Assembly: GCA_004794655.1 (NCBI GenBank)
Contig: SMMW01000125.1
Location: 1,139,501-1,203,500, forward strand
DNA length: 64,000 nucleotides
Origin: Marisa cornuarietis
Lineage: Eukaryota > Mollusca > Gastropoda > Architaenioglossa > Ampullariidae
Reading direction: 5' to 3'
Below the pieces are notes generated by a model. That model had not been told where the DNA came from. It worked only from the letters and a program-made list of their open reading frames with translations, and did not search any database. Of the stretch, positions 22,633-43,275 are shown piece after piece; the first letter of the stretch is position 1; the number at the start of each line of letters is the position of its first letter. The translations under genes and the position numbers were made by a program.

Positions 22633-25600
22633 CTACAGGTCTGGCAGTTTGTTGTTGTTGATTGCCTGCAGCACAGACAGAGCATCGGTCAGGAATACAA
22701 CCTGGCTGTCGTGGTCTGCTTTGCTGCTGATGGTATTTGCTGCATGGACCAGGGCTTCTATTTCTGCTCTATAGTTTGTACAGTGGAGGCCAGTTGGTAT
22801 TGCTGCTGCCTGCCGCTGTCCATTTGGGAACTGGATGTAGACACCAGCCCCTCCTCTTTGGGTAGCATCTGTGGCTGACCCATCTGTGTAGGCCCTTATC
22901 CATGATTCCTGGGGGTACCTTTCTTCTAGCATGGCTAGTGTCAGGGCTCTCTTGCTCACGTTGTTATGCTCTTCCTTTGTTGCGAGGTGAGGAACTGTGG
23001 TGCAGATGGTGATGTTCCCTGTTCTGTCTTTCCAGAACGGAGGATCGAGGGAGGGAGTCGGTACCAGGACCTGCGCGGGAAGCTTTGTTTGGTGTTTTCT
23101 GTGTAATGCCTGTGTCACTCGTACAAAATTAGATCTTTTCAGTCTTCCCGAGGACAGTAGTTTCTGTCTGGCACTCATCAGGTGGTCTTCACTGTGCCTG
23201 TACTTGGTGGCCTGCACGAGTGCTTTGCATTCTCTTCTCTTGTTTAGTGGGGAAATGCCTGTTATCTGCTCCATCATATCTATTGGTGTAGATCTCATGG
23301 CGCCTGTTATGATTCTCAGTGCTTGGTTCTGTACCTTGTCCAAAGTCTGATGGTGTGACTTGGCTGCTGTCATCCACGTGCTTGATCCGTATTCTAGATG
23401 TGGTCTTACAGTGCCTTGGTACACGGTCTTCAGGATCTGTTCGTTAGCGCCCCAGTGTGTTCCTGCCAGCTTTCTCATGATGTTCAGCTTTCTTCTAGCT
23501 TTTGTTTCTGCGTCCAGGATGTGTTGCTTCCATGTCAATCTTTTGTCAAAAGTGACTCCCAGGTACGTCTGCTGGTCTTCAAGTGTCAGCGTAGCGTCTC
23601 CCAACTTTAGTCTGCCAGCTTGTGCTTTGGTGGAGAGAGAGAAAAGTGTGGCTGTTGTCTTGTCTCGGTTGATGGTGACACACCAGTTGTCTGCCCAGGC
23701 TGCCACTTTGTCTAGTGCAAGCTGCATCCTGTGGGTTGCTGTTGTTGCATACTCTTCTGAGCACCATATGACCAGGTCGTCTGCATACAGTGCTGCCTGG
23801 ACTCCCTTTGGGAGCTCTGGTACCAGGTCGTTGATGAAGAGTATAAACAAGGTCGGCGAGAGTACTCCCCCCTGTGGTACTCCATGCCGTAGCAGCACCT
23901 TACGGCCACAGTGTCCATCTACAAGCACCCTGGCTTTTCGGTTGTGTAGGTAGGACTTAATCCACCGGTACATGTTGCCGCTGATGCTGCTTCGCTGGAG
24001 CTTGACCAGGAGTCCATCCTTCCATACCTTGTCGAAAGCCTTCTGCATATCAATAAAGACCGCTAGGGTGACCTTCTGGGCTTGGAAGGCATCTTCAATG
24101 GCCTGCGCTAGGTGCGTTGTTTGATCTTCTGTGCTTCTGTATCTTCTGAAGCTTGCTTGCTCTGGGATGATGATACTTTCAGATTCCAGGTACCACTGCA
24201 GGCGCTGATTGATGATGCGCTCTATGGTCTTGCAGACGCAGCTTGTCAGGCTGATGGGGCGGTAGCTCAAGATTCGCGACTTGTTCTTCCCTTTTTTCAG
24301 AACAGGGATCATCCTGGCTTCCTTCCAGCTTTCTCTCCAGCTAAGGTTGAAAATGTCCAGTAATTTGGTGAGGGCTGTGCTGCCAAGGTGTTGCAGCATC
24401 TCATTCGTTATGTTGTCTGGACCTGGAGATTTTTTCTTCTTCAACTGTTTGATGGCGTTCTTCAGTTCTTGAATGGTAATATCTTGCTGCATCGATTCAT
24501 GAACATCCCCTTTTGTTGTTCTTTCTTTCTCTTCTTTTTTGGCTTCTTTTTTCAGATGCAGTGGGATGGTGATGCTGCTCTCCTTTGCATATGCTTGCGC
24601 AAATATATTTGCTGCTGTCTTATCTGTCAATATCTGTCCATCTTCTTCAAGGGTGATCTTCTGTCCCTTGTTGCCCTCGTCATTTAGTGCCTTAGTCAGC
24701 CTCCACAGTTTGATGGTATCTCTCTCCATATTCAGCCCTGCTGTCTTTTCTCTCCAGCTTCTTCTCTTGCACTCTATGTTTATTCTTAGCAGTTTGGCTT
24801 TTGTTTCTTGCAGCTTGATGTTATTTTCTTGACTGGGGCTGGTTTCTGCTTCTTCTCTGGCTTTTGTCAGGTCGTCATGGGCTCTCTGTAGTTCTGCTGT
24901 CCAGTACGGAGTGTAGTCCTTTCGCACCCCTCTTGGGATAGTTTCTTTAGCTGCCTTGATGATACTGGCGTTGAAATCTTTGACGACCTTGTTGATGTTT
25001 GGTCCTTCCACCTTGATATCTTCTGTAAGCTCATTTGTTCGTATTCTGAACAGCCCCCACTGTGCCTTCTTATGATTCCATCGGGCATGCTGCGGGGGTT
25101 CAGGTGTCGTACTTCCTTTGATGGTGAGGAGTACTGGGCGATGGTCACTTCCTCCCAGCTGGTCTAAGACTTTTCTGCTCAAATTTTTGTGGATGTCGTC
25201 TGTGCAGAGCGCCAGGTCTGGTTTTGTTGTTGTATGCCAGCGGCGCGAAAAGAAGGTTGGTGGATCTGTGGGGTCGTTGACAAGGATTAGATGGTTCTCG
25301 TCTTGCCAAGCTTCAATATCTTCTCCTCGCTTATCAAGGGTGTTGTATCCCCAACTTTGGGACTGGCTGTTAAAGTCTCCAGCGATGAGAAAGCCGCTGT
25401 CTAGAACCTGGATAGTGTCAAGGGATAGCATCTTGTCACTGGGGCAGTAATAGTTGATAACATGGAGGACGTTGTTTGTGGTGGAGACCTTAACTTCTAT
25501 GTATTCTGCCTCATCCATGTATCTTTTGGTCTCGCTAGCATTCATGTTGTTTCTGACTAGGGTCAACACTCCGCCTTTCTTTCTCCCCTGGCGATCACTC

Positions 25601-26025
25601 CTGAAAGTCTGGTATCCTCTGATCTTGAAGGGCTTTTCTTTTTGTAGGTGAGTTTCTTGTATACAGCAGATGTTAATGCTGTTCTGGTGCAAGAACTGTT
25701 CTAGTTCTGTCTTCTTATTGGTAACCCCTTCTGCATTCCAATGCATGATATTAATGTTGGGGTTGTCTTTGGCTTTGGTGGTACGCTGGCCAGTCGCTTT
25801 CCTTCCTCGTCCCCTGGCTTCACGAGACGGGTTGAAGGGACCTCCAGTAGCTGAGGGTGGGCTCCTTTGAGGCACGGAGCCCGGCACTGCACCTGCCTGG
25901 CGGGTCTTCACAGGGCGAGCACCATTTCTGTCAATTCTGTCTCCAAGTGTCATATAGGCAGTGTTGCGTGGTGGAGTGGTTGTTTCAGAGTGCGCCTTGT
26001 GGCCCACCACCTCCGACTTCAGCAC
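22633..26025 (-). CDS. LINE polyprotein: endonuclease, reverse transcriptase and start of RNase H
   Basis: 1,130 residues. The AP endonuclease domain (about 90-320) shows MHWNAEG, CIQETHL, GDFNSQ and GSDHRPV. Reverse transcriptase (about 550-810) shows KSPGPDNITNEML, SYRPISLTS, FIDMQKAFDKVW, GVPQGGVLSPTLF and ALYADDLVIW. RNase H begins at about 1070 with YTDGSA, YRAEIEAL and FLTDALSVLQA. The frame ends at a TAG (22633-22635) right after KLPDL, where intact relatives continue into the last RNase H block. It opens at a GTG directly after a stop, so the true start is unclear; the first ATG in frame is at the MTLGDRID segment. Confidence 0.87.
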   Translation of the reverse strand: MLKSEVVGHKAHSETTTPPRNTAYMTLGDRIDRNGARPVKTRQAGAVPGSVPQRSPPSATGGPFNPSREARGRGRKATGQRTTKAKDNPNINIMHWNAEGVTNKKTELEQFLHQNSINICCIQETHLQKEKPFKIRGYQTFRSDRQGRKKGGVLTLVRNNMNASETKRYMDEAEYIEVKVSTTNNVLHVINYYCPSDKMLSLDTIQVLDSGFLIAGDFNSQSQSWGYNTLDKRGEDIEAWQDENHLILVNDPTDPPTFFSRRWHTTTKPDLALCTDDIHKNLSRKVLDQLGGSDHRPVLLTIKGSTTPEPPQHARWNHKKAQWGLFRIRTNELTEDIKVEGPNINKVVKDFNASIIKAAKETIPRGVRKDYTPYWTAELQRAHDDLTKAREEAETSPSQENNIKLQETKAKLLRINIECKRRSWREKTAGLNMERDTIKLWRLTKALNDEGNKGQKITLEEDGQILTDKTAANIFAQAYAKESSITIPLHLKKEAKKEEKERTTKGDVHESMQQDITIQELKNAIKQLKKKKSPGPDNITNEMLQHLGSTALTKLLDIFNLSWRESWKEARMIPVLKKGKNKSRILSYRPISLTSCVCKTIERIINQRLQWYLESESIIIPEQASFRRYRSTEDQTTHLAQAIEDAFQAQKVTLAVFIDMQKAFDKVWKDGLLVKLQRSSISGNMYRWIKSYLHNRKARVLVDGHCGRKVLLRHGVPQGGVLSPTLFILFINDLVPELPKGVQAALYADDLVIWCSEEYATTATHRMQLALDKVAAWADNWCVTINRDKTTATLFSLSTKAQAGRLKLGDATLTLEDQQTYLGVTFDKRLTWKQHILDAETKARRKLNIMRKLAGTHWGANEQILKTVYQGTVRPHLEYGSSTWMTAAKSHHQTLDKVQNQALRIITGAMRSTPIDMMEQITGISPLNKRRECKALVQATKYRHSEDHLMSARQKLLSSGRLKRSNFVRVTQALHRKHQTKLPAQVLVPTPSLDPPFWKDRTGNITICTTVPHLATKEEHNNVSKRALTLAMLEERYPQESWIRAYTDGSATDATQRGGAGVYIQFPNGQRQAAAIPTGLHCTNYRAEIEALVHAANTISSKADHDSQVVFLTDALSVLQAINNNKLPDL

Positions 26026-26362: not shown

Positions 26363-26452
26363 AGAACAGACTTCAAGTGGAATGCGCAGTGCCAGAAAAG
26401 AGAGAAGACCATCGTCAGCATGTCTGGAAACCCCTCACCTGCTCAACAAAGG
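26327..26452 (+). CDS. Copy 1 exon 1 (5' UTR and first 11 codons)
   Basis: Acceptor TTTATTTTCAG ends at 26326 and donor GTGAGC starts at 26453. The ATG at 26420 opens MSGNPSPAQQR, ending in phase 0. Copy 2 has the same 33-nt coding start (MSGYLSSAPQQ) before a GTGAGA donor, which fixes the start codon. An upstream ATG at 26382 is in another frame. Confidence 0.75.
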
Positions 26453-27039
26453 GTGAGCCACCGAAACTGTAGTTAATGTGTACTTAACGGCACACGTGAC
26501 ATAAATATATGATTCGTCACACACTAGCCATGGTTTTTATTTTAATCTTATTTAATAACTTCATATTTTATCTGTGTGGTGTCGTGACACTAAAGGCGGG
26601 GCCCGGGTGTCTTGGACGTGGTGGAGTCAGTCAAAGGGGAGTCAACCCTGTGGAGGTTTATCTGCACTTTGTCAAAGACACACAAGCTGCTCTTCTCGCT
26701 GGGTCAGGTCAGCCATTTTCCTTTCTTCTGACGTCACTTCCTTTATAGTTTTTACTGCTGCTGTTTGTATTTCTCCTTGTCCTCGTTGCTTTTATTTTTA
26801 CAAATCAGTTTCCTTATGTTTTACAATAACGTTCAGGGCGGTTTTACAATAACGTTCAGGGCGGTTTTACAGCAAACTATTCTTATCAGTGGAGTCATGT
26901 AACTCTAATGTTAGTCTCACATTTGCAGTCACACACTCGTATCTCTCACACTTAGTGAAATATGTTTTACCGTAATTACCTTCTTGATCTTGTTCTACTT
27001 CTTTCTCTTTCTCTTATACACGCACGAGCACCAAAAAAA

Positions 27040-27110
<71 letters not shown>

Positions 27111-29540
27111 GCTTAAACGTGCACGATGTACAGACGAAGCAACACACCCGCACACGCAAACACAACGAGAACTAGAGAGAAAAGGTGAAATAGTGTATTT
27201 TATTGCAGTATGATTTGTATAAAGCCTACAATCACGTTTCCTGAGAAGTTAACAACTGTTGCTGCAGATATGGAAATACCCTCTTGATCTTGTTCCACCT
27301 TTTCTCTTTCTGATATACACACATCTACACAAACAAACAAATAAAAACCCTCTTCCTACATACATTGACGCTTAAACATGCACGATGTACACACGAAACG
27401 ACACAGCCACACACGCAAACACAACGCGAACTAGAGAGAAATGATGAAATAGTGTATTTTTTTGCAGTGTGATATTTAAGATTAAATACCAGTTGTATTT
27501 CTGCTCTACGAAAAAAAAAAAACTAAAGAAAGTATCAACTTTGTCACTGGTCGACGAAACTGGCTATGTTCTGTAATTGTCAACCGATTGGTCACAGTAA
27601 ACATCCCAAATACAGAAATATGAATCTTAAGTTTTACATTCCTTCTGTGTTCAGGAAGTCGTAGCCCTATTCAAGACATCAAACAGAAGTCAGGAGCCGA
27701 TGTACAGTTGGACCCAAACCCGTCACCCGTACAAGACACGAAGACTGTCATCATCCACGGCTCACGTCTCCAGATCGAGACGGCAGTCAAGCTCATCAAC
27801 CAGGAGACCGGGGACCAGGTTTGCAGAAATATCCAGTAAACGACTTCTGAAGTGGATGATCGTAATCAAGTCATCATCTTCTTTTATTATAACCTTTAAA
27901 CGGAGAATAAAGCTAACATTTTGTACAGTTACACTTGACGTTAAGATCAATTTTGTTTTATTTATTGTACAATATTTGATAATAGTTAACCATATCAGAA
28001 AAGATTTGAACTTTTGAAAGATAACTATTGTGTGAATGACTCTTAAACAGGAAAGTATTTCAAGACAAGCCCAGAAATTCTGGCTACAGTGGGCTGAGGC
28101 CGCGTTCCCTGATCTCGACTCTCACGCCTACTTCCTGCCTCCTGTCTACATCAACCGCGTGCCGATGACCAGACAGTCAGCTGCTGGTCAGGAGGCTTTT
28201 ATCGTTGAATTATTACTTGGACAGAGTCGTCAGGCCAGCCAGCCAGCCATCCAGCCATCCATTGCTGTATCCGCAGGCGCTCAAGCTTTCATGCCTCAGC
28301 CTCCTTGTGTTCAGGACAGTGACATCAGAGATGATGCGGCCATGCAACATATTTTCTTATGTCTACATGAATTATTTAAACAAAAACAAGAAGTCTTGTT
28401 TGCAATGACTCAGCTTCTGTTCGGCCAGTACCTGGGGGAACCTTGTTATGCCGCTGCAGCTGCACAGCTCCCCCTACCCGCCAGCCTTCCACCCGTCCTA
28501 CCGCGAAACTGGAAGCGGGGAGACTTTGATGTCCTTCTTATTCACCGACATTTCGGTTTAGTCGTCTGTGAGGTCAAAGCTTTTGGTGATAACGTAAAAC
28601 AACTGAAAATGTCACAGCAGGACACAGATAATAACATCAGAAAGAAGATGAAACAGGCTGTGTCGCAGCTGGACAAGGCGGAGGCCATGTTGTCTCACCT
28701 GGTGTCTGACATCTCTCCCGGTCTGCGTATCACTAAGACAATCGCCTTCCCGAACGTTGCAGCAAGTCCCCTTCAACAGGCAATTTGCGGCGACACTCAG
28801 CTAACTCAGGTGACAGCTCCATTCTGTCCTTTTTACGTACTTTCATATGAACACAACTGAGTCGCTTTTAGGTATCAATTGTCAAATGATACATTTTTTA
28901 TTTTGTTTCTTTTTCTTAACGCGTATACGATATTTCATGGTTGTGATCACGGCTTTTTTAGAATGTAAACTCTAGACGTATGTTTTAGATAAACGATTAA
29001 TTTCATTGAATGTAGTTCAGTCTTTCCGTGTTTGACCGGCAATTACCGTACGATGCCACCGTGTAAATTAGCTTAATGCTAATTTGTTTCAGTTTACTAT
29101 CAGAAATCTGTCTCCTGAAAACATCGAGATGTTTAGATCATTTCTTTTAAAGGTTAAGGGGATTTTTTTACAGGACCTGTGTCGATGTCTGGGAATACCA
29201 GATCCCGCCGACATCGCTGGTGTGTGTCTGTGCTCTGATCAGTTGTCTGACCCCAAGACCCCGTGGGACGTCAGTAGTCACGTGCTGAGGGAACTCGGAC
29301 ACTGGTGGCAGCGACGTGTGGCTGGGACTGGACCCGACTCTCAAAACATGACTTCACACGTGTACAAGAGTCTGGTAGCCAGGTGAGTCTTTAACTTAAG
29401 AGCCAAAGCAAAAATAGAGATTTTTAAAGAGCGGACACTTGGAGCTTGGCCTTGACAACTTTATATGTTTATTCTAGACTGTTTTTATGTCACATTCTAT
29501 TACAGCAACACAAATAAAAGTAGAAAAAAATCCCCCAAAT

Positions 29541-29594
<54 letters not shown>

Positions 29595-32500
29595 CTCTCT
29601 CTCTCATATATACATACAATCTTCTTTCCTCTATTCTTCTACATTTGCTTCCACACAAAACGCAAAGTGAGCTGCCACCTTCAATGTTCATTAACAGGTT
29701 CTCATAGACGTTATATGGTAAGTCAAAGAAAGTGATGTTCATATCTTTAATCCTAGCCCATTATATTTTCTGGAGCTGTGTCACAGTAACCCCATGAGCA
29801 TCATCATAAACTGGCTTTGATATGTGTCAGTGCGAGTACTGTTATGTGCTCTCACAAAAATCTAAGTATTTATTTGAAATGCTATTGCTTTTCGTGAACT
29901 AGCATTGACAAATGTTTAAAATGCATTAAGCCATGAGCTACTGTATAGTGTCAGCCTCATAAGACTGATAGTAAGAGAGGGAGGGACCGCCTCTTTAGGT
30001 GTCCCCCTCTCTATGAATCTCGTTGGTCACAGCACTTGGTAAAATATAAAAATTGTCAACAATGAGCCACATTTATTCTCAAAAAAATTCAGCAGTTGAT
30101 TATATAAAAATCTCTTGCTAGTCACAAACACTATTTTTATATGTGTTTGTAAATTAAAGGAACAGTCTGTCAAAGACGTAAATTCTTTTTACAACTGTAA
30201 TTTGTCTAATGACAAATGTTGGGTAATCTGCTCTAGGTTTAAATCAAATAAAAGAGCTGTTAGATATAAATAAGCAAAAACATTCTGCTGAATTAAAATT
30301 GTCCAAGCAGTCCTTCACACACCAACAAAAAAGTACTAACAACTATATTGATGTCTCTCAAACCCTGTAAACCTAACTTTCCACTTCACTCTAGTAAACA
30401 AGTTGTCTGCACTCTCTTTGACACCATAATTGTTCAATGGAAAATGCAAAAATTCAAATTTGCATTTATGAGTTTGGCACTCATGAAGGCGATTAAAAAC
30501 AGGCAGATTAAGGTGATTGCTTTAATGTATGCACATTATAGACCCATTGACAGCTTCTTTAAATTATTTTTCTTTTTACACCACAACTTTGTAGAATCAT
30601 GTTCTTTTATAATCAATTTGTTGTTGTTCTTGCATATCATCTTCTTTTCGAGTGTTCACGCGTGTCCATGTGAACCACAAGTGTTTTTAGTCTTCTGTTA
30701 TTATTTTTTTTAGTATAATCAAGAGACCTGGAATAGCTAGATAGTCAGAAATTGAAGGGTACCACTTCAAACGAAGTAATAAGAATATTTAGCATAACAA
30801 TTTGCTAATTCAGCTGCGAGGGATTGGGTAATTTGCAAAAACGGAGACGGATTACATTAGACAAATAGTTAATATACTTTTAAAAGATATAATTTGATCC
30901 TAAACAAGAAAGGCATATCAGATCAAAATGGGGCTACCATAACACTTTGCCTACTACAAGACTGCCTTTAGAGGTGTGGAGACTTTATTTAAAAATATTT
31001 TGGAGTTAAAATTAAGAAAATTTGTAAAGAATAAAATAGGAATTAAATTATGGTAATAATCTATTTTATGAGCGACTACCTTTTATTAGTTAACATTTAT
31101 GGATCCAATAAAAATAATCCAGAATTTTAGGCTGAATTAGATAATTCAAGATACACAGACTAGTGAAATTATAATAGAAAGAGATTGGAATTTAGTTTGG
31201 GTTCTTAACATAGACTCGCATACTTAACATCTTTTGGCCAAACACCATCACCAATGAAGAACTCCACCGAAGAACTGAAACCGAGTCCATCACCACTCAG
31301 GTTCAACGAAGGCGTTGGCGATGGATTGGACATGTGCTCCGCCAGCAGACAGCAGACCTCTCCAGAATCGCCCTACGATGGACTCCAGACGGCCGAAGAA
31401 AACGAGGCCGCCCAAAGGAAACCTGGAGAAGAACAGTGGAAAGGGAGATGAAAGGAAAGGGATGGACATGGGGTCGCCTGGAGCGGGTCTCAGCCGATCG
31501 ACATCAGTGGCGGGCTCTGGTTGAGGCCTTATGTGCAAATAGCACGAAGAGGATTGATTGATTTGATTGATCTTAACATAGACTAATACAATTACAAACA
31601 GATATATTTTTTGCCTTCAATCCCTGATTCAGAAATACTTGACAAAACAAGGTGGACAATTTTACACTCTTTTCATCGATTTTTCGAAAGCATTGACAGA
31701 TCCAAAGCATTCTACATCCTGTTAAAAAGGGGTATCCATGGAAGAATGTTTCAAACATTGTTTCAATAGTATTTCTAAAACTATGAAAGCTACTATTAAG
31801 ATTGAATCTCGAATAACTAACTATTTTGAGTGTATGGCCGATGTAAAGCAAGGCTTTGTGTTCAGTCCTCTGTTGTTTTGTATCTTTCTATCTAAGCTTT
31901 GGTCAGACATTATTATATGGAGCAAGTGGTATAGATGTCGTGGCAGATCCATTTGGTACCTTACTTTTGATGTATGCTGATGACATTGCCATTGTTGCTG
32001 ATTCCTCTGTTGACGTTCAACGCAAAATTTAGTATCTAGAAACTATTTGTAACAAATAGAGACTTACAGTTAATATGGATAGAACAAAAATATTAGTCTT
32101 TTAAAAATGGTGGCTTTATTAATAATTGCGACTATGTTGGAAAGAAGAGCACTGTAGAACATAGCTATAATTATTTAGGTGTTATATTCACATCTACACT
32201 AAAGTGGGCTAATATACTGATAATTTATCTGGAAAAGCATTAAAAGACTTTGCAGAAATTAGGAAGCTGTATTTTAGGCTAAAAAACCTTTCAACAGACA
32301 TTATCTTTAGAATATTTGATACAAAAATAAAACCTATCCTTCTGTATGGATCTGAAATTTGGGGATGGAAACAATGCAATGATAAGGAAAAAGTTCAAAT
32401 AAAATTTTGTAAATTAATTTTAAATGTTGGTAAGGAAGTTAAAAATGATATACCCTTGGGTGAATGTGGAAGACTTCCTCTTGTATCAGACTCGTTTATA

Positions 32501-35500
32501 AGAATAATCCTATACTGGTGCAAATTACTAACGTTACCTGAACACAGGTACCCAAAACAATGTTACAATATGTTATGTTGACAGGATAAGGAAGGCAGAT
32601 CTTACTGTGTAGCCATGGCTTTGGGTATGTATGGGAACTGCAGACAATTGGCAATTTTCCCTTATTCATTACCACGGTAAAAAATGATTCAAGGATTGTT
32701 TTCGTCAAAAATGGCAGGATTCAGTGTCTACTTCTGATTATTGTGACTATCATCCAGACCTAACCAGAGCAACATACATAAACCAGGTATTACGACGTGA
32801 ACACAGACGTGTCCTGTGTCTTTTAAGAAGCATCTGTTTACCACTTAATGGTATCATTCGTTGTCACCAAACCAGCGGCAATTCTGAGTGTGAGCAGTGT
32901 GATAGCCGAAGTATGGAAGATCTGCATCATTTTTTGCTATTATATTTTACTAAATATACAGTGCTACGTAATAGATATATTCCACTCTTTTATTATAAAT
33001 TTCTCTTTCCCTCTTAAGGTTCACCTTTTGTGTAAGAACCTTAAGGGAAATATAGCTATTAATGTTGCCATACACATAACAAAATGTCTGGAAATGGGAG
33101 CACCATGACAGTCTACATATAATCATCCATTCATTGTATTGTTTACTACTTTATTTACTATTAATTTGAAGTCTCAAACACAATGGAGTGTTGATCGTGT
33201 ACAACCACCCACTGTTAACATGCACGTAAACAGTATTATGTGTTGTTGACATGGGTCATATGGCCTCCAAAAACTGAATAAAATTATTATTATTATTAAA
33301 TTCCATATGAATCTGCTGTTTAAATCTCAAGATACATTTGGGGATTACTCCACCGTGTAAAAGATTTACCGAATCTGAGTTTTAGGCCATGGTAGATAAA
33401 GACATCATGGTGTGGAAGCATATCGGGATTAACATTTTCACAGAAAGTTTCAACCAGTAAAGTGGAACTCATTAATGTGCTCCCATACATCGGAGTCATA
33501 TGTGTGGGAAATACTCCTATGTTGTACAATAAAATTTGAAGTTCTGCTATTTTGCTTTCCCTGGTGTCTGCTGTCTCTGTAGCATTACAGTCAACGTCTA
33601 TCCAAAAGTCACTGGTGGTACAGGAAGCATTGCAATGGGTTGAGCAGTCCCATCAATGTTTATTGCCACAATGAACCGGTCTTTTCTTACGAGGTGAATT
33701 ACTCTGGATTTTCCTATTCTAGTGTTAGTTTCTTGCTAGCACTAGCAGCCCCTAAGGGGCTCATTAGTTTCCAGCTTCTTGGAATGTGTGACTGGACTGC
33801 TGCTCTTCTATGTGAGGTACTGCCACTAGATAGCATGGCGCGTGCTGTCAACTGGCTGCTTGGGCAGGAGCTGTCTCCACCACGGGTTTCACGTGCGAGG
33901 TTTCTGGGTCACTACTGACAGCAACGACCGGTGCATCGATGCATGTAGATGTGCCCTGCACACTGTCTGCCAATGAAAGTGAGTTTTGTAAAATAGATTA
34001 TGTTTGGCTGATCGCCGAAACTATCTCACTCCCAGCGACATAATCTACATGGACACAGGCAGACTTGTTGAGAGATGGATCACAAGGTGTAGTGACATCA
34101 AAAGCGATGGGACCTATTATCACCGGTGTTTATAAAGTCTTTGTCGAGCGCAGCACCGAGATCAGTCCCTTCACCTTCGCTAGCATCATCTGCACTTGAA
34201 CACTAGCTACTGTCTGGTTCCAATGCTTGTAACTGGAGGCATTGACTAATCGCTGGATACTCCTCCTAGTCTAATGGTAAGAAAGGCTTTAGGTTTAAGT
34301 GCAAGAAAAATTCTATGTATATCCGGTGAAAACGAGTTTAACCTCCTCCCTCCATACATACATACATACAGTCATGTAAAGTATGTTCTTTTGACACTTC
34401 GTCTGCAAAACGGATGAAATCCCAATGAGTGAACAATTCATCGGAATGGTATAAACGCGCTGTTTGAGCTTCAGATGAAAGATTTCCGTCTTCGACGTAG
34501 CTGATGGGTAAACTGCCCCCCAGACTATCTTTGCTATTTTCATCTAATAACGATTGAACGACTCTAAAACGTAATATTCCCATTCCTAGAATAGACCTCA
34601 AATCAAGTCTGAAATACTCAGGAAGCATGTTGTGGAATAGCCTCCCTCTCCAACTTAAGCTCCCTCTCCTTTTTTGATTGAGTGACGTCCCTTCGCCTAG
34701 CAGGCTTGAGGGGATCAGCTCTCAGTCGTTTTTGTTATATTCATCGATCTACGTGAGTTTTTTAGTGTCTCCCATTATTTTTGTGACGTTCGTTCCACCA
34801 TTTACCTCTGTTCTGGTTTGCTTTTTAATGCTTGTGTCGCGTCTTCTTAATTCGCCATGTCTTTTCTGGATTCAACTGTCACGTCTGATGAGGGACCCAA
34901 GATGGCGGATGACTCATTCCTTATGGTCTCTGACCTTATGAGAGCGCTGTGCTGGGACCTTCCCGGCTGTAGTTCTCACAGAGTTCATGTTCGTCTCACT
35001 CACACACGAAGTAAGCTACTGTCTGTGCCATTAACTGCGCTTAATCCTACTGTTGCAACTGCCATCAGAAGTGTTGGTATCGGCTATCATCTCCCACGTG
35101 TTCGCCCGCATCGTGCGGGTCGTCGCAAACAGAGACAGATCTGTGTCATTAGTGCCAGAGTGAGCAGCCAGAATCCTTTTGAGGAAGAGGTGAAGAAAAC
35201 TGTGAATTTTGGCAATCTAATTTCAGTGCCGATTAGTCATGTCAACAGTCGGCATTCGTTCAATGATAGGAAGCGCTCCTCTCCGCTACATCTCCGCATT
35301 GCGCTGTTTAATGGCCGGTCTGTGTCATCCAACCAGCAGGCACAGAGGAGAACTGAGGTCGTGGAGTTCATCAATGACAATGATCTGGACATCATGTTAC
35401 TGACTGAAACGTGGCTCAGAGCTTGTGGTGATGAGAGTGTCTGTGTTGATCTGACTCCAGTTAATTACAGTATACGCTCATTTCCCCGTGTCAGTCGAGG

Positions 35501-38500
35501 AGGAGGGATTGCTGTCATCTTTAAAACATCTCTCCTGAGTCACCTTGCGTTTGTTAATGATCTCCCTTTTATACACTCGTCATTTGAATTTGTTAATGTA
35601 AGACTCTCACTATCAGACAGAGAAGTTCACCTTATGTGTTTATATAGACCACCACCAAATACAACAAACAACTTGACAGATAATATGTTTCTATCGGAAT
35701 TTCATGCTCTGCTTGACCACTGCAATACGCTCAGTGGCATACCTGTGGTAGTGGGTGACTTTAATGTTCATTTTGATGAGGAAAACCATCAATATACCAA
35801 GAAGATAACAGATCTGCTGGATGTCTTCCAGTTCACCCAGTCGGTCACTGAGCCAACACACGTGAAACAACATATCCTGGATTGGGTGGTGCACAGACCT
35901 GTTGATCAAGTGATACGTACAGTTACAGTCTCCAATGTGCTCTCTTCAGACCATTACTGTGTGCGGTTTGATCTGTCAGCCAGCCACCCACCGCTCACAC
36001 CAGTGTTTCGCACTCTTCGTCGTCTTCGTGACATCGACATGTCTATGTTTCGTGAAGACCTGAGAACCGAACTTGCTCTCTGCCCCTCAACTTCTGCTGA
36101 AAGGCTCTTGGCTGTTCTCCGCTCCGTGCTGGAAGTCCATGCTCCTGCTGTGTGTACCCAAGTTCACCCCAGGAAACATGCGCCATGGTACCCCAAAATT
36201 CGTGTTGAGCTGCGGAGAGCTAAGGCGGAGCGGCGACGAGCTGAGAGGTTGTGGCGTAGGTCTGGGCTGACCGTCCACAAACAGCTGCTAAATGCTGCCA
36301 AGCGTTCAGTCATTCACCTTGTTCACTCAGCCAAAACTGCATTCATTCGTGCTCACATCGGCACTTGCTCGTCGAGTCGAAGCCTGTTTAAGACCTGCAA
36401 CCATCTGCTGGGCCGTAATAACAGGCCGCAACTGCCTGCAGTCATTGCACCTGCTTCACTCCCTGAGGCCTTCAGCAAGTTTTTTGTCCGGAAGATTCTT
36501 GACATTCGGCTTAAACTTGATCAGCTGCCTGTGCACAACCCCGCTAGCCACATTGACCATCTGGCAAGGCCACAGTGCTCTTTTTCTTCCTTTCAGCCGA
36601 TCTCGGAAAGCGAGCTTAAGACCATGATACTCCAGTCAAAACCCACAACCTGTCCACTGGACCCAGTTCCCACCCCTCTACTGGTAGACTGTCTTGACGT
36701 CCTACTTCCTGCCCTAACAGAAATTGTAAACGACAGCTTGACTTCTGGAATTTTCCCTTCCACCTTTAAAACAGCCTTAGTGAAGCCGCTGTTAAAAAAG
36801 CCTACCCTCGACATCAATGTATTAGACAATTACCGTCCAGTCTCAAACTTACCATTTCTGTCTAAAATCCTTGAGAAAATAGTTCTCAAGCAACTTCTAT
36901 CCCATCTGAACTCTGAAAACTTGATTTCTCCATCACAGTCTGCTTATCGCCCTTTTCACAGCACTGAGACTGCTCTGCTAAAAGTGACAAACGACATTTT
37001 GTCTGCTCTCGATAGAGGTGACATCTCATTTCTCACCATGTTAGACCTGTCTGCTGCCTTTGATACCATAGATCACACTACTCTCATTCACAGACTCAGT
37101 ACTCTCTATGGCATCTCAGGCTCCCCACTCAGCTGGTTTCAGTCATATCTCTCAGATAGGACTCAGTCAGTTATAATGGATGGCTGCGTGTCTGCACCTG
37201 TGTCTATTCACTCAGGGGTCCCACAAGGCTCTGTATTTGGTCCCATCCTCTTCATCTTATACTTGAAGCCACTTACCACTCTAATTCAATCTCACTCTAT
37301 ATCCCATCAATCATATGCTGACGACACCCAGCTATATACCAGTTGTTCTCCTTCTCAGGCTCACACTACTATCCAGAGCATCCAAGATTGTATCTCGGAT
37401 ATTAGGCTATGGATGACCCACAACAAGTTAAAGCTGAATGACGGAAAAACAGAAGCTTTACTTTTTTCAAAGAGGAGAACCAGATTTCACCCTTCACTGC
37501 CTGTTTCTGTTCGGGTAGGCAATGCCGATGTTCCTTTTGTAACTTCGGCACGTAATTTAGGTTACATAATGTCTGCTGACATGTCTCTTGATTAACATGT
37601 CTCTCACACTTGTCGATTTGCATACTATGAGCTCCGGAAGATCAGCTCCATTCGCCATACTCTGTCCGTCCCAATCACCAAACTTCTTATCTGCTCATTT
37701 ATTCTGTCTAAATTAGACTACTGCAACTCTCTTCTTGCAGGCTGTCCTCAATACCTCCTTGATAAGCTTCAGAAGGTCCAGAACTCAGATGCTCGTCTCG
37801 TTTTTCGGACTCGCAAACATGATCATGTCTCACCACTTCTTCGCTCTCTTCATTGGCTGCCAGTTAAAGCTAGAATCGACTACAAGCTCTCAACTTTCTG
37901 CTATGGTTTCTTCGCTGGTCACTCCCCAGCTAATTTAATGAAATCTTGTCTGTAAAAACTCCTGCCCGAAACCTTCGCTCCTCATCTGACTCCCGCATTT
38001 TATCCCTCCCTCTCACAAAGACAGTCACATATGGACAACGGATGTTCTCCCTTTGTGCTGCTCAGCAGTGGAACTCTCTACCACATCACATTCGCCACTC
38101 AGCCTCTAAGGCCGCTTTCAAACGCTCTCTTAAAACATATCTTTTTACAAAATACTATTCCTGACTTGTACCCCATCTCTATGTTGTCCAGTGTCCCTAT
38201 GTGTACCTCACTGTCTACTGGTTGTTATGTTTTCGTTCTATCAAATTGTACTGCGCAGAGAGTGCGATCTATCTTATTCGTGATTCTGCGCAATATAAGT
38301 TCGCATTATTATTATTATTAAGCAGTTGAACTCCCTAAGCTGGTTTCGACACGAGTTACCAGTTACTACATTTACTAGATATAGGAAAATCTGATAAGCC
38401 TAAAAAATTACTTAACAATAAATAATAGAGATACTTCCCTACTCCAGGACCTTTGTATATATATATATATAACCACTGATTTTGTACATTTTCACCTTCA

Positions 38501-41500
38501 CTCTCTTTGATATTGTGTTTATTACCACTTGTTCTGCTGTACTTAGTTAATTACTTAGCTTACTTCCCCCTTTAAGGGTGAGGGATAAGAAAGTATGTCT
38601 TGCTTATTTTACCCCTCGTAAATAAATAATTGAATTCAATTGAACTCTGCATTATGAGATTGTCTACCATCACCTGGTGCAGAGAGAACAGAAATTCCGA
38701 GGACTGGGGTAGTCTCCCTGCCCTCTCCCATCATAAATTACAGACAAGCCGTTTCTTTGTAGTCCTGACTCATTCTGCAAGAATGAAGTACGAGGATCTT
38801 ATAAAGCAGGTTTTGTATGCCTGAAAACCCAGGCAACTTGATGTGGTCTAGTGCGAGTGTTGTAGCCAATCTGGCGAATCTCTTACAACGATTTTATTAT
38901 AGAAGTTATCTGAAATAACGTAAACATCTTGACTCCAGCTCCCAAATGAAGCTCTTGTCGCTGCTGGTCATACAGGAGATAATTTACTATATTCTTTCTC
39001 TCCCTGTCTCATATCTCAAAGAGAGTAATGTCCCTTCGCTTAACCGGCTGGAGGGGACTAGCTCTCTTTGTTTGTTGTTGTCTTCTATGACCTGTGGTGA
39101 GTTTTGTCCCCATTATTTGACACGTGCTTCTTCGTCTTTCTGTTTCAATGATTTGCTTGTCTGCGGCCATTTGTTCCAACAACGGCCTTCTGCATTCCAA
39201 TCGAAAGGTAGCCTGGTCGTGACGGTTTCTTACGCCATTCATCGCATGATTTTGTTTGACTAGAGATCTTTGGATCTACAGTTTGATCTACAACTACAGA
39301 CTGCATTTGCTGCGCGGTCATGTATATCCCAGCTTATCTACGATGATGTGTTCTATGGACAAGAACTATTTGTATTAACTAAGCAGTTACAACATGAGTT
39401 TATTCTCTCACATTACTGTAGCTTCGTCCATCGCCATGAACTGTAGACAGTCATACCTGCTGTCGGCTCTGGTTCTCGCCGTGACCTACTACCTGCCTTT
39501 TTCATAACAGGACTGCCAGAACTAGCGGTCACACAGATCCTGTGGATTATACTACATGCTCTGAAATACTTGCATAGCGGAGGTAACATACACAGGGGCG
39601 TGTCTCACTGGCATCCACAACTCTCTCCACAATCGTTACGACTGGCGCCAGTGAACAGACTATGACTACCCCAAAATGCTGTTGATTGCCTCCTGTGGTT
39701 CAATCCAGAAATTCTTGAACAGAATCTGGCTTTTATGGTGATTGTAAAACTAACCTGATGATCGTACTACAAGAATTCGGCGATGTTTCAATGATTCTAA
39801 AACTAACCCATGCAACTGTGAGCACATCCATGTCATTGGTGGGTGGCCTCATAAGAAAATAATAGCGACGTGTTCAATGTGTAATTTATTTAATGATCAG
39901 CCTGAAAAATAGGAAAACACTTGTCCTCGTACGTCCTCCATTCCAGAACTGACGACTGTAGGCCGCTAGCAGTTATCATGTATGTGTGGTGTTCTTTGTG
40001 TAAAACACTTTGAGTTCATCTTAATGGTGGAGAAAGGTGCTATAGAAATCATCATTATTATTATTATTACATCTCAAGATGACGATTTTTTAACATTATG
40101 ACGTCACAGACTTGACATCATTTAGTGTTTGTGTAACTAATTGTCGTCTGCTTCACTTTATGGCAGACCTTTGATATCATAAACATCAATTTCAGACGAC
40201 GTTCACGTTTGGCTTTTCTTGTGGTACTAAAGACTCAATTTTATATTTGTCTACAATTCAAAGGTTTGAGATTTCTTCACTGCAATAATTCCATTTAGTT
40301 ATTAAAACCAATGGCAAGCTAAAGATTCGTTTTTCAATTATGATTTTAAGAGAAAGTAAAACTCTTTTGTATTGAGTTTTACAGTAAAATAGAAGAATAG
40401 TTTTCTTTAAATAAGAAAAAAGAGAACATAACACGAGGAGACTATGCTGACAATCATTAATATACAAAACACACTCTGTACTTAAAAAATCTTTTCAAGT
40501 GTAATTTGAGAAACAATCTTCATTAAACCTTATTGATTTCGTTATTTTCATTGTACTAGATTCTGTGGTCCGGCGACAACAGTGAGTGTGCCATCTACAT
40601 GTCCTCCACGTGTGAGTGTCAAGACCCTGGGTCAGGCCGTGTGGTGTACAGGAGAGTGCTATACTGCTGTAATAACACTCTTCCCGGAGCAACTTCACCT
40701 GCTCAACAAGGCGCCTCCCAGACTCTTTGTCACCGGACCGCCCGGCACAGGTAAAACCATGGTGCTGCTGATGACGGGTATAAAATGGCTGCGATGTGGT
40801 CACCACGTCTACATTGTGAGTACTTGGGATGAGAGTCGTGCAGCGTGCATCATGTTGTACCACCTGTTGCTGCAGACAGTAAACACACAACAGTCAGCAG
40901 GTGTATCACCCGGTCAGCCTCACCTCTTGCAGTTTAATATTGATGACGATGAAGACAGGGAAAAGGCCGTCAACGACTTGTCACAGGCGGCGAGCGGAGG
41001 GACGTTGTACGTCATCGCTGATGAAGTGATGTGAGTTGTACAGCGTGTGATGTGATGATAGACACACAGGTAGATGGCGCTTGCTTGTATATCATAATCA
41101 CCACCAGGTGTGTAACAGGTGATAATTCCTCAATCGTTGTCACACCTGATGCAGGTAGAAGTAGATTTGTTGTTACATCGACTGTTACACAGATTGTGTA
41201 GCAACACGTGTCATTATTGTGACGTCATTTACACAGTTGATTGATTATGTCACCCAATACACACAAACATAATCTCACACATATTAGTGACAGTACACAG
41301 TGTAACATGTGTATATCAGCCTCTGTAACACTCATGTCTGTGACAGGCCACGACAATTCAAGACTTTCTGTGAAAATCTGCTGACACAAGTTCCTCGTCT
41401 CCATCTTTGGGCAGCAAGTTGTAACAATAGAATCACACCTGCCGGCTGGCAAGGGGAATATTTCACCAGACCCCTCCGCTCTCCGCCGGCCGTCGTCAGG

Positions 41501-42279
41501 GAAGTCGAGCAAAACAGTTATATCACTGATGCTTATTCGGTCCTGCCGTACACTGAGCGTGGTGTGCCCGACCACACAGACGGCCCGCCAGTCAGACGAC
41601 TGTATCACCGAGGTCAGGGTCACTCAGGTGACAGGCCAGTTGACTGTGTCACGTGCGGTCGTGAGGTGGCCAGCTTCCTACACAGTCTCCGTGTTGGTGT
41701 TACGGGTAGGTATTGTGTAGTGTAACGACTGTTGACAGGTGATCAGTTAACGGTGTGGTAGTAACAAGCAGGTGAGAAACTGTCTTGTGTAGAAGACAGT
41801 GTGTTAGTCACGTGTTACGTTATCAAGTCATGACTTCACTGTTTATATCCATGTGTTTGCCAGTGTGTACGCAGTCTGCAACATATGTGACTTACACAAG
41901 AAACTAACTTGGAATGTTAACAGAGAATGTCACGACAACCTCAACCATTGTCACCTCCACTAGCGGCGGCACAACATCCCCCTGCCTGCAGTGGAAAGAC
42001 GTGCTGATGATGTATTGGGATGTCGTTAGTGACGACTCGGTTATGGTGGAGGCGCTTAAAGAAGCGGGTATTCCAGTGCAGTTGATGAAGGATGATGACA
42101 CTGAGGACGTGGCTATGGCCCGCAGTGACGTGGTGTGGGTGATGTGTGGACGTTTTGCTCGTGGTCTTGAGAGAAAAGTCGTAGTCTGTCTGGATGTTGA
42201 TGATTTTGAAGATGTTGTACGACTTCACGTCATGTCCCGGTGTACGTCACAACTTGTGGTTATCTCCCATGATGTCTAG
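26420..42279 (+). CDS. Copy 1: complete KH-NERD-SF1 helicase gene (8 coding exons, 847 aa)
   Basis: Coding exons: 26420-26452, 26596-26707, 27655-27818, 28051-28809, 29093-29382, 40560-41030, 41347-41705, 41924-42279; sum 2,544 nt, 847 codons plus TAG. All introns are GT-AG and every phase (0,1,0,0,2,2,1) agrees. Domains: GR-rich stretch (~12-30), KH domain (~32-103, signature KSGADV), NERD-type nuclease (~230-330, D263 and E277-V-K279), SF1 helicase (~500-847) with Walker A GPPGTGKT (K518), Walker B IADE (D607, E608), RSP motif IV, motif V RGLERK (809-814) and motif VI SRCTSQLVVI. Nuclease and ATPase residues are all present. NERD-helicase fusions are known in bacteria; adding KH suggests RNA or RNA-DNA substrates. 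Function is inferred. No signal peptide or membrane segment was seen, so it is likely cytosolic or nuclear. Confidence 0.82.
26596..26707 (+). CDS. Copy 1 exon 2 (GR-rich and KH beta-1)
   Basis: 112 nt, phase 0 to phase 1. It encodes a Gly/Arg-rich stretch (GRGGVSQRG) and VEVYLHFVKDTQAALLAG, the first strand and helix of the KH fold. Copy 2 has VQVYLHAVTDQQAELL in an exon of the same length. Confidence 0.78.
26819..26864. repeat. 23-bp tandem duplication in intron 2
   Basis: Two exact units of TTTTACAATAACGTTCAGGG plus CGG. Confidence 0.9.
26979..27475. repeat. Intronic tandem duplication (~200-240 bp) with (CA)n
   Basis: 26979-27212 and 27279-27472 share TCTTGATCTTGTTC, GACGCTTAAAC.TGCACGATG and GAACTAGAGAGAAA.G.TGAAATAGTG. 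The left unit contains a long (CA)n run (27043-27107). Both lie in intron 2 of copy 1. Confidence 0.82.
27655..27818 (+). CDS. Copy 1 exon 3 (KH domain core)
   Basis: 164 nt, phase 1 in, phase 0 out; acceptor TTCAG at 27654, donor GTTTGC at 27819. It encodes the KH core: SRSPIQDIKQKSGADVQLD, then VIIHGSRLQIETAVKLINQ. KSGAxV followed by V-I-x-G-xxxxI-xxAxxxI is the typical KH pattern. The loop is GSGSRS rather than a canonical GxxG. Copy 2 has the same exon length and pattern. Confidence 0.82.
28051..28809 (+). CDS. Copy 1 exon 4 (NERD-type nuclease domain)
   Basis: 759 nt, phase 0 both sides. It starts with a helix and conserved FWLQW.EAAFPDLDS and YINRVPMTRQS, then a variable Gln/Ser/Pro-rich linker, then GQYLGEPCYAAAAAQLPLP and RGDFDVLLIHRHFGLVVCEVKAFGD. 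The D-x(13)-E-V-K spacing and the hydrophobic strand leading to EVK match nuclease-related (NERD) PD-(D/E)XK domains. A Lys/Gln helical tail follows (KQAVSQLDKAEAMLSHL). Bounded by AAACAG at 28050 and the donor GTGACA at 28810. Confidence 0.85.
29093..29382 (+). CDS. Copy 1 exon 5 (nuclease-helicase linker)
   Basis: 290 nt, acceptor TTTGTTTCAG at 29092, donor GTGAGT at 29383, phase 0 to 2. It encodes FTIRNLSPENIEMFRSFLLK, a Leu/Cys-rich helical segment and WDVSSHVLRELGHWWQRR. No separate domain was recognised; it joins the nuclease to the helicase. Confidence 0.78.
29546..29605. repeat. (CA)n then (CT)n microsatellite
   Basis: CA run to about 29591, followed by CT units to about 29605. Confidence 0.96.
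29606..31228. other. AT-rich intronic stretch, nothing recognised
   Basis: No coding signature, inverted repeats or element ends were seen. Short ORFs here are low-complexity. Confidence 0.5.
31229..31572 (+). mobile_element. RTE-type LINE 3' end
   Basis: One frame reads PNTITNEELHRRT, RWRWIGHVLRQ, GRRKRGRPKETWRR and WRALVEALC, the C-terminus of RTE/craniofacial-development-protein-2-like LINE ORFs. A tail of TTGATTGATTTGATTGAT follows the stop, the tandem type of RTE end. The rest of the LINE is absent (5'-truncated). Confidence 0.8.
31640..33110 (+). pseudogene. Degenerate LINE reverse transcriptase fragment
   Basis: Pieces of the family seen at 19468: FVFSPLLFCIFL, LMYADDIAIVAD (~31971), MDRTKILVF, KPILLYGSEIWGW (~32331), CGRLPLVSDSFIRIILYW, and a Cys/His C-terminal end near 32890. 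Many stops and frame changes. It ends before the AATAAAATTATTATT region at about 33280. Confidence 0.72.
33111..34639. other. Unassigned intronic stretch with weak minus-strand ORFs
   Basis: Minus-strand frames at 33320-33760 (for example IGVFPTHMTPMYGS and MLPHHDVFIYHG) and 34338-34630 (MLPEYFRLDLRS) look protein-like but are broken, and I recognise no family. They may be remnants of a transposon or another pseudogene. Confidence 0.35.
34857..37595 (+). CDS. CR1-like endonuclease-reverse transcriptase ORF
   Basis: 912 residues. Endonuclease (about 150-380): ALFNGRSV, LLTETWL, GDFNVHF and SSDHYCVRF. Reverse transcriptase (about 600-850): NYRPVSNLPFLSKILEK, SAYRPFHSTETALL, LDLSAAFDTIDH, GVPQGSVFGPILF, and SYADDTQLY at 819-827 with catalytic DD. 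Ends at TAA 37593-37595 after SADMSLD, where relatives read on (HVSHTCRFAYYELRKIS), so the stop is a nonsense mutation. Confidence 0.87.
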   Translation: MSFLDSTVTSDEGPKMADDSFLMVSDLMRALCWDLPGCSSHRVHVRLTHTRSKLLSVPLTALNPTVATAIRSVGIGYHLPRVRPHRAGRRKQRQICVISARVSSQNPFEEEVKKTVNFGNLISVPISHVNSRHSFNDRKRSSPLHLRIALFNGRSVSSNQQAQRRTEVVEFINDNDLDIMLLTETWLRACGDESVCVDLTPVNYSIRSFPRVSRGGGIAVIFKTSLLSHLAFVNDLPFIHSSFEFVNVRLSLSDREVHLMCLYRPPPNTTNNLTDNMFLSEFHALLDHCNTLSGIPVVVGDFNVHFDEENHQYTKKITDLLDVFQFTQSVTEPTHVKQHILDWVVHRPVDQVIRTVTVSNVLSSDHYCVRFDLSASHPPLTPVFRTLRRLRDIDMSMFREDLRTELALCPSTSAERLLAVLRSVLEVHAPAVCTQVHPRKHAPWYPKIRVELRRAKAERRRAERLWRRSGLTVHKQLLNAAKRSVIHLVHSAKTAFIRAHIGTCSSSRSLFKTCNHLLGRNNRPQLPAVIAPASLPEAFSKFFVRKILDIRLKLDQLPVHNPASHIDHLARPQCSFSSFQPISESELKTMILQSKPTTCPLDPVPTPLLVDCLDVLLPALTEIVNDSLTSGIFPSTFKTALVKPLLKKPTLDINVLDNYRPVSNLPFLSKILEKIVLKQLLSHLNSENLISPSQSAYRPFHSTETALLKVTNDILSALDRGDISFLTMLDLSAAFDTIDHTTLIHRLSTLYGISGSPLSWFQSYLSDRTQSVIMDGCVSAPVSIHSGVPQGSVFGPILFILYLKPLTTLIQSHSISHQSYADDTQLYTSCSPSQAHTTIQSIQDCISDIRLWMTHNKLKLNDGKTEALLFSKRRTRFHPSLPVSVRVGNADVPFVTSARNLGYIMSADMSLD
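37596..38164 (+). pseudogene. CR1 C-terminal region, broken
   Basis: Same frame after the stop: AYYELRKISSIRH, FILSKLDYCNSLLAGCP, LLRSLHWLPVKARIDYK. A frameshift near 37940 moves the end to another frame (RNLRSSSDSRILSLP, WNSLPHHIRHS, FKRSLKTYLF). Confidence 0.82.
38430..38645 (+). mobile_element. LINE 3' end with AATTGAATTCAATTGAA tail
   Basis: A non-coding block, TTAAGGGTGAGGGATAAGAA to CCCCTCGTAAATAAATAATTG, ending in TTGAA-like units. This looks like the 3' UTR of a mollusc LINE family whose coding part is absent. Confidence 0.45.
39000..39180 (+). mobile_element. CR1 5' region fragment
   Basis: Similar to the CR1 5' region at 34670-34850: both carry GTCCCTTCGC...GGGGA..AGCTCTC and a later GTGAGTTTTG-like segment with CCCATTATTT. 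No ORF. Confidence 0.55.
39342..39744 (+). pseudogene. STRAD-like pseudokinase pseudogene fragment
   Basis: Read in one frame: DDVFYGQELFVLTKQLQHEF, SHYCSFV, a TAG, then AVGSGSRRDLL, ITGLPELAVTQIL and ALKYLHSGGNIHRGVS; a frame change, then DYPKNAV and FNPEILEQNL. The order and spacing fit STE20-related adaptor (STRAD) pseudokinases, where HRD is replaced by HRS-like sequence and WLSPEVLQQNL follows. The stop, frameshift and lack of introns point to a decayed retrocopy. It lies within intron 5 of copy 1. Confidence 0.55.
39890..40075 (+). mobile_element. LINE/SINE 3' end with (ATT)n tail
   Basis: TGTAAAACACTTTGAGT..., GAGAAAGGTGCTATAGAAAT and (ATT)n form a common invertebrate LINE/SINE 3' end. 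No coding sequence. Confidence 0.5.
40560..41030 (+). CDS. Copy 1 exon 6 (helicase motifs I and II)
   Basis: 471 nt; acceptor TTGTACTAG at 40559, donor GTGAGT at 41031. It encodes CTGECYTAVITLFPEQLHLLN (a Q-motif-like region), RLFVTGPPGTGKTMVLLM (Walker A, K518), GHHVYIVSTWDESRA (motif Ia-like), and GGTLYVIADEV (Walker B with D607-E608). This is the first RecA-like domain of an SF1 helicase. Confidence 0.87.
41347..41705 (+). CDS. Copy 1 exon 7 (helicase motifs III and IV)
   Basis: 359 nt; acceptor TGTGACAG at 41346, donor GTAGGT at 41706, phase 2 to 1. The segment LHLWAASCN sits where motif III is expected and FTRPLRSPPAVVREV where the Arg of UvrD motif IV (NYRS) occurs. GREVASFLHSL follows before the next domain. 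No nuclease or zinc motif is added. Confidence 0.8.
41924..42279 (+). CDS. Copy 1 exon 8 (helicase motifs V and VI, C-terminus)
   Basis: 356 nt; acceptor TTAACAG at 41923. A Thr/Ser linker, then CLQWKDVLMMY, VEALKEAGIPVQLM, SDVVWV and RGLERKVVV (motif V-like, K/RGLE), and LHVMSRCTSQLVVIS (motif VI, with SR in place of TRA/SRA). Stop TAG at 42277-42279. Copy 0 at 77-399 is the paralogue, 11 codons shorter. Confidence 0.86.
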
Positions 42280-42384: not shown

Positions 42385-43275
42385 GGCGACAGTATCTAGA
42401 ACAAGTTGCAGCTGAAGCAGAGGCAGCAGCTGAACGGAAAGACATGAAGGCAACCTATCAGAACTTAAGGAAGCTAAAGTGACCGAAGGCACAACCAGGA
42501 CCTTCGGTTAAAAGAGCACATGGCACCCCCATCACTGAAGAGCGAGCCAAACTGAAGATATGGGGGAACATTTCCAACAGATTCTTAACCAGCAAGATCC
42601 ATCAGTGCTTCCTGAAACCATCGAAGCAGAAGAAGACCTAGATATCAACCATTGCACTACAGGAAATAAAGGAAGCCATTCACAAAAAAGAACGGTAAGG
42701 CGCCAGGAAGGGATGGTGTATGTGCTAAAATGTTGAAAGCAGAAGAGGAAGAGACACCACATATCCTACAAACAATCCTCCAGGAGATCTGGGACATCGA
42801 AGAAATCGCTGCCGAGTGGAGAAAAGGTGTTATAGTCAAGATACCAAAGAAAGGAGACCCTGGTGACTGTAATAACTAGAGAGGCTTTACATTGATATCC
42901 GTCGCCAGAAAAATTTTTAGCCGTATAATTCTCTAGGGCATTACAACAACAGTAGACTCCATACTCCGACAAGAACAAGCTGGCTTCCGAAAAGGACGAT
43001 CATGCATCGACCATATCTTTGTGCTGCGGCAGATCCTGGAACAATCGCAGGAGTGGAACAGCCCCCTGTATATGGCCTTTATTGACTTTGAGAAGGCATT
43101 TGACAGCCTACACCGTGCCTCTCTATGGAAGATTCTACGTCACTATGACCTCCCAAAGAAACTGGTTAACATCATCAAGTTCTTATACGAAAATTTTGAA
43201 TGCCAGGTCATCCACAACAACCAGCTGACTGAACCCTTTAGAGTGGACACAGGCATCAAGTCGGGTGCATCCTAG
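42385..43275 (+). mobile_element. RTE LINE fragment, degenerate
   Basis: Reads LEQVAAEAEAAAERKDMK-like linker, GKAPGRDGVCAKMLKAEEEE, EWRKGVIVKIPKKGDPGDCNN, EQAGFRKGRSCIDHIF and FIDFEKAFDSLHRASLW, then VDTGIKSG; it ends before the FADD block. Several stops and frame changes. It is a different RTE family from the copy at 14770. Confidence 0.82.

Follow-up and report, generated by a model that had tools for sequence, protein, structure and literature searches.

Gene structure

We analyzed a 64,000-nucleotide window of the Marisa cornuarietis genome (contig SMMW01000125.1, positions 1,139,501–1,203,500; genome size, 534,278,870 bases), in which a gene at 26420–42279 on the forward strand encodes a protein that almost certainly combines a KH domain, a NERD-type PD-(D/E)XK nuclease and a motor of helicase superfamily 1 (SF1). 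A first-pass annotation had proposed eight exons joined in phase, and this is borne out, with GT..AG at every border. Exon 1 (26420–26452) carries the start codon and encodes MSGNPSPAQQR, a beginning similar to that of P0024 and other relatives (cited here by P number). Exon 2 (26596–26707) encodes a Gly/Arg-rich linker and the first KH strand, and exon 3 (27655–27818) the remainder of the KH domain, with GSGS and one extra residue in place of the GxxG loop. Exon 4 (28051–28809) holds a conserved N-terminal segment followed by the nuclease domain (D263, E277 and K279), and exon 5 (29174–29382) is a linker to the motor. The motor itself is spread over exon 6 (40560–41030; Q-motif glutamine, Walker A and Walker B [ADE]), exon 7 (41347–41705; motif III region, motif IV arginine and a zinc-type H-x4-H-x7-C-x2-C motif) and exon 8 (41924–42279; motif V [GLE], motif VI [SRCTSQ] and the stop).

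The exon set as originally drawn has 848 codons (847 amino acids and a stop), with the exon 5 acceptor at 29093. We rejected that acceptor: alignments of P0001, P0010, P0025, P0033 and P0036 start at 29171 with no gap after exon 4, and 29093–29131 is not covered by any of the 13 homologue queries. Because the homologues run from exon 4 directly into DLCRCLG, we place the start of exon 5 at 29174, a second AG acceptor that leaves the phase unchanged. The exons and their phase therefore stand, and the predicted protein shortens from 847 to 820 amino acids. Given its 93 homologues, the same exon order in other genomic copies and purifying selection on exon 4, the comparisons indicate that the gene is genuine, far beyond chance.

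Domain composition

Profile searches and structure prediction, both suggested in the first-pass annotation, uphold its assignments of a KH domain, a NERD-type nuclease and an SF1-type motor. The KH_1 profile (PF00013) matches the 847-amino-acid version at 25.9 bits, over a cut-off of 21.5, along profile positions 22–66 of 66 only. Comparison with the sequences of solved structures gives a KH match to FUBP1 (E-value = 0.0029), and the predicted model of the relative P0036 includes a KH fold. Among 51 family members, Pfam detects KH in 12.

The NERD profile (PF08378) falls just below its cut-off in the window protein (19.5 vs 22.1 bits; E-value = 0.0014), is matched at E ≤ 0.1 by 27 of 51 relatives (best, 1.7e-4) and passes the cut-off in four exons elsewhere in the same genome. 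The predicted model of exon 4 bears some resemblance to PD-(D/E)XK nucleases, and the AddAB nuclease appears among the VIA rows for this exon. The three residues named at the outset as the active site, D263, E277 and K279, are intact in the window protein and conserved in 49 of 51, 48 of 51 and 48 of 49 aligned proteins, respectively, in agreement with the original nuclease call.

For the motor, the first-pass annotation had listed motifs I, II, V and VI; motifs Q, I, II, IV, V and VI are all present, and the predicted model of a relative shows two RecA-like lobes, for which the nearest structures are Schlafen and UvrD. Pfam matches of the window protein to P-loop families are weak (best E-value = 0.0089). 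The helicase profile of group III Schlafens (PF09848) does not reach its cut-off in that protein (11.1 vs 24 bits; E-value = 0.24), and 25 of 51 members match it at E ≤ 0.1. Apart from KH, the comparison with solved structures returned generic P-loop or chance matches, with SLFN5 at 0.079, and NCBIfam gave nothing useful for the five members scanned. Conservation across the 51 aligned proteins is high for the Walker A lysine (51/51), the Walker B aspartate and glutamate (51/51 and 50/51), the motif IV arginine (51/51), the motif V glycine (48/48) and the motif VI arginine (46/49). Between motifs IV and V, the four residues of H-x4-H-x7-C-x2-C are conserved in 49/49, 49/50, 51/51 and 50/50 proteins, a pattern from which we infer zinc binding. 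All 14 key residues are present in the window protein.

A large family in caenogastropods

A search of the 534 Mb genome with exon 4 gave at least 165 matches (421 candidates, 150 of them scored), nine with a stop among the matches listed. The corresponding search with exon 6, which carries Walker A, gave at least 150 (399 candidates, 150 scored), one with a stop; matches to both exons are thus nearly all open. In the 30 best NERD exons, a sample biased toward the query, the D-E-K residues are kept in all 30, 29 are free of stops, and a KH exon and an exon 5 lie within 1.5 kb of 20 and 21, respectively. In 18 genomic regions selected for closely spaced exons 4 and 6, a KH exon was found in 15, exon 8 went undetected in four of them and exon 5 in a single one, and the exons found were always in the same order.

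The window itself holds part of a tandem array on the forward strand. An upstream copy contributes its last exon (77–399), placed by homologue alignments; its NERD and Walker exons are on the same contig, ahead of the window. A downstream copy contributes its KH and NERD exons (exons 3 and 4), at 54797–54960 and 55171–55950. Along the contig, the NERD exon of this gene (1167551) lies between those of the upstream copy (1127451) and the downstream copy (1194671), and a further neighbouring one is at 1231357.

Protein searches recovered 93 homologues at E ≤ 1 (best reported E-value = 0). The named homologues are confined to caenogastropods (Pomacea, Littorina, Babylonia, Nucella and Batillaria); P0068, P0069, P0081 and P0149, from short contigs, fall outside this statement. 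In Pomacea canaliculata, the family comprises at least 70 LOC numbers (68 on nine contigs and two more), all annotated as uncharacterized. Among the 7,992 candidates per search that share short words with the query, no homologue outside caenogastropods was named either by a profile search (E ≤ 0.01) or with Walker A masked (E ≤ 1; weakest match, 3.2e-49), a scoring that leaves room for distant kin beyond caenogastropods. No prokaryotic homologue was found at E ≤ 1 among the candidates scored.

From these sequence comparisons, the window gene belongs to a very large and apparently undescribed family of duplicated caenogastropod genes. Titles and abstract openings of the papers retrieved, with subscription literature mostly outside the coverage, contain no description of a KH, NERD and SF1-motor architecture. 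The available part of PMC8533556 names seven LOC numbers, none of which is in the Pomacea family tally, and that of PMC9178244 has no word beginning nerd, helicase or nuclease.

Selection on the exons

Exon 4 has a ratio of nonsynonymous to synonymous divergence (dN/dS) of 0.31 between the two copies in the window and of 0.33 (0.27–0.40) across 18 copies, values which indicate that it is under purifying selection. Across the same number of copies, dN/dS is 0.51 (0.31–0.74) for exon 3 and 0.65 (0.48–0.86) for exon 8. The proportion of synonymous differences (pS) is 0.336 in exon 4, above that in exon 5 (pS = 0.120; dN/dS = 0.72, 0.44–1.13), exon 6 (pS = 0.075; dN/dS = 0.79, 0.50–1.17) and exon 7 (pS = 0.096; dN/dS = 1.15, bootstrap 0.80–1.68). 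These values would fit motor exons that are homogenized, with weaker constraint or diversification, neither of which is proven; positive selection on exon 7 is not established.

Within exon 4, window positions 28096–28155 (residues 16–35) have a synonymous divergence of 0.098, compared with 0.22–0.58 elsewhere in the exon (30 copies), which suggests either gene conversion or constraint at the DNA level.

Exchangeable ends and a membrane-anchored class

Relatives carry other modules around the nuclease–motor cassette. V-set and I-set immunoglobulin domains with a membrane segment occur in P0025 and other relatives, a PH domain in P0093, and ZU5 downstream of the cassette in P0067 and P0095.

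The nuclease columns are readable in 144 of 154 proteins. The triad is kept in none of the 13 proteins whose membrane segment precedes the cassette, compared with 119 of the 131 others; the Fisher test value of 5e-12 is descriptive only, because paralogues are not independent. Eleven of the 13 are Pomacea loci, all on one contig of 24,344,826 bases. Their triads read GEK, DEL, DKK, NNK, DKF, DVV or DVK, and 10 of the 13 proteins have lost the glutamate. P0025, P0028 and P0030 retain the motor residues, P0127, P0148 and P0151 lack some of them, and the other seven models stop short of the motor. Broken triads are also found in 12 of the 131 non-membrane proteins.

In Littorina saxatilis, P0104 has long tandem VDIVKQLSPDALTRDKL-like short repeats before the cassette and matches the effector-associated domain EAD2 (1.7e-8), and P0140 and P0147 carry the same label in precomputed Pfam results. 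Beyond about residue 1480, past its ZU5, P0095 looks death-domain-like by eye; Pfam reports no such domain there at E ≤ 0.01.

Comparison with known systems

The closest structural likeness is to group III Schlafens, which also join a nuclease and an SF1-type motor in a single chain. Foldseek ranks SLFN11 and SLFN14 highest against the full model (E-values of 5.0e-10 and 7.3e-10), although with a low overall TM-score (0.29) and a large root-mean-square deviation over the whole chain. The snail nuclease is of the NERD/PD-(D/E)XK type, whereas Schlafens have the Schlafen core, and the snail family adds KH, immunoglobulin, PH or ZU5 modules. Since the Schlafen core (AlbA_2) was not found in the window protein (no Pfam match at E ≤ 10, with filters that drop most weak matches), we do not class the protein as a Schlafen; KH and NERD occupy the place of that core. 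Compared with UvrD-type SF1 helicases, motif III reads differently, the zinc-type motif is inserted, and identity is about 13 per cent.

In bacteria, the PADLOC systems RTasNERD-Hel and Nhi combine NERD or another nuclease with a helicase in one chain. RTasNERD-Hel matches only the P-loop stretch of P0080 (residues 341–458; E-value = 1.3e-4) and Nhi gives weak matches only (0.015–0.036), so that kinship with bacterial NERD-helicases is unproven. In its working, the snail protein may come closest to a Schlafen or to a bacterial NERD-helicase. In some bacterial systems, NERD has been proposed to cut the cell's own nucleic acid. The available part of PMC12839542 presents the NERD of the BREX protein PglW as a nuclease that may serve as a suicidal backup.

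NLRs and other expanded animal immune repertoires likewise have large lineage-specific copy numbers, a conserved ATPase center and exchangeable ends. The snail family differs from NLRs in its two RecA-like lobes and its nuclease, and sequence kinship is not shown.

Possible function

The first-pass annotation suggested sensing or destruction of foreign or aberrant nucleic acid, and such an activity would fit an expanded family with exchangeable ends and retained active sites. Its three domain calls hold; it missed the zinc-type motif. Taken whole, the reading of a soluble protein from a large family, with KH, NERD nuclease and Schlafen/UvrD-like SF1 motor, working in defence, is in our judgment evenly balanced. 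Of its parts, a nuclease coupled to a nucleic-acid motor is probable, and a defence-type role has about an even chance of being right. The exchangeable end (KH here; an immunoglobulin ectodomain with anchor, PH or ZU5 in relatives) would recognize a ligand or partner, and the two-lobe ATPase would grip a nucleic acid strand or change state with ATP, thereby allowing the PD-(D/E)XK site to cleave nucleic acid, whether foreign, aberrant or the cell's own. Family members that combine a membrane anchor with a broken nuclease might then be receptors or regulators. The ligand, ATP use, cleavage, defence role and partnership of receptor and effector are all inferred.

A weakness of the first-pass reading is the KH domain of the window copy. 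Its loop, AGSGSRSP, exceeds that of P0036 by one residue and is not a normal GxxG; among the 24 KH proteins of the family, window protein included, GxxG is present only in P0036 and P0033, some matches beginning beyond the loop. Because the loop is abnormal, the RNA binding that the annotation had attributed to this domain is doubtful, even though the domain itself scores over the Pfam cut-off.

Other functions deserve consideration. Instead of a helicase, the P-loop half might form a STAND/NLR-like switch in which ATP drives oligomerization and NERD acts as the effector: nSTAND_NTPase5 and AAA_16 are weakly matched (E ≤ 0.1) by 28 and 44 of 51 members, and P0127 matches nSTAND3 at 2.2e-5. Such a switch as the main fold is weakened by the model, in which two RecA-like lobes match UvrD and SLFN11, and by the second lobe, which keeps the motif IV arginine and the GLE and SRC residues; we consider it unlikely. 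We are similarly unpersuaded that the family restrains nearby long interspersed nuclear elements (LINEs) instead of microbes, with the same nuclease–motor chemistry directed at element RNA or complementary DNA. Three reverse-transcriptase pieces do lie in the window, one within intron 5, but their closeness says little because LINE pieces are common in such genomes, and membrane-anchored immunoglobulin ectodomains would better suit extracellular ligands. A still less probable function is DNA or RNA repair or processing by duplicated enzymes of the AddAB or Dna2 kind, which couple a PD-(D/E)XK nuclease to an SF1 motor, with no immune role. Foldseek also matches the full model to Dna2, and the AddAB nuclease resemblance of exon 4 points the same way; however, it would be unusual for repair enzymes to number well above 100 copies, to have exchangeable ends and to include a membrane class whose nuclease is broken.

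Extending the proposed defence role to the whole family, we tentatively envisage, with less confidence than in that role itself, a caenogastropod immune repertoire of more than 100 NERD/SF1 proteins per genome, divided between soluble executioners and nuclease-dead immunoglobulin membrane receptors. The executioners would pair live nucleases with exchangeable sensors (KH here), the cytoplasmic tail of each receptor would be the same nuclease–motor with the nuclease off, and the common motor could let receptors recruit or restrain executioners. If this is true, a large ampullariid gene family has been left unnamed as its domains score near or below annotation cut-offs, and it unites a Schlafen-like motor and animal sensor modules with a type of nuclease known chiefly from bacterial defence. 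It would offer testable cases of nucleic-acid-directed animal immunity built by gene expansion and of a nuclease turned into the dead tail of a receptor.

Repeats and mobile elements

Introns of the gene contain CA repeats at 27041–27108 and 29548–29592. On the reverse strand ahead of the gene, a LINE-type element (22636–26025) has a long open frame that matches endonuclease, reverse transcriptase and RNase H. Intron 5 contains an open LINE-type frame on the forward strand (34851–37592) with endonuclease and reverse transcriptase matches, and a reverse transcriptase fragment (42937–43272, forward strand) lies shortly after the last exon.

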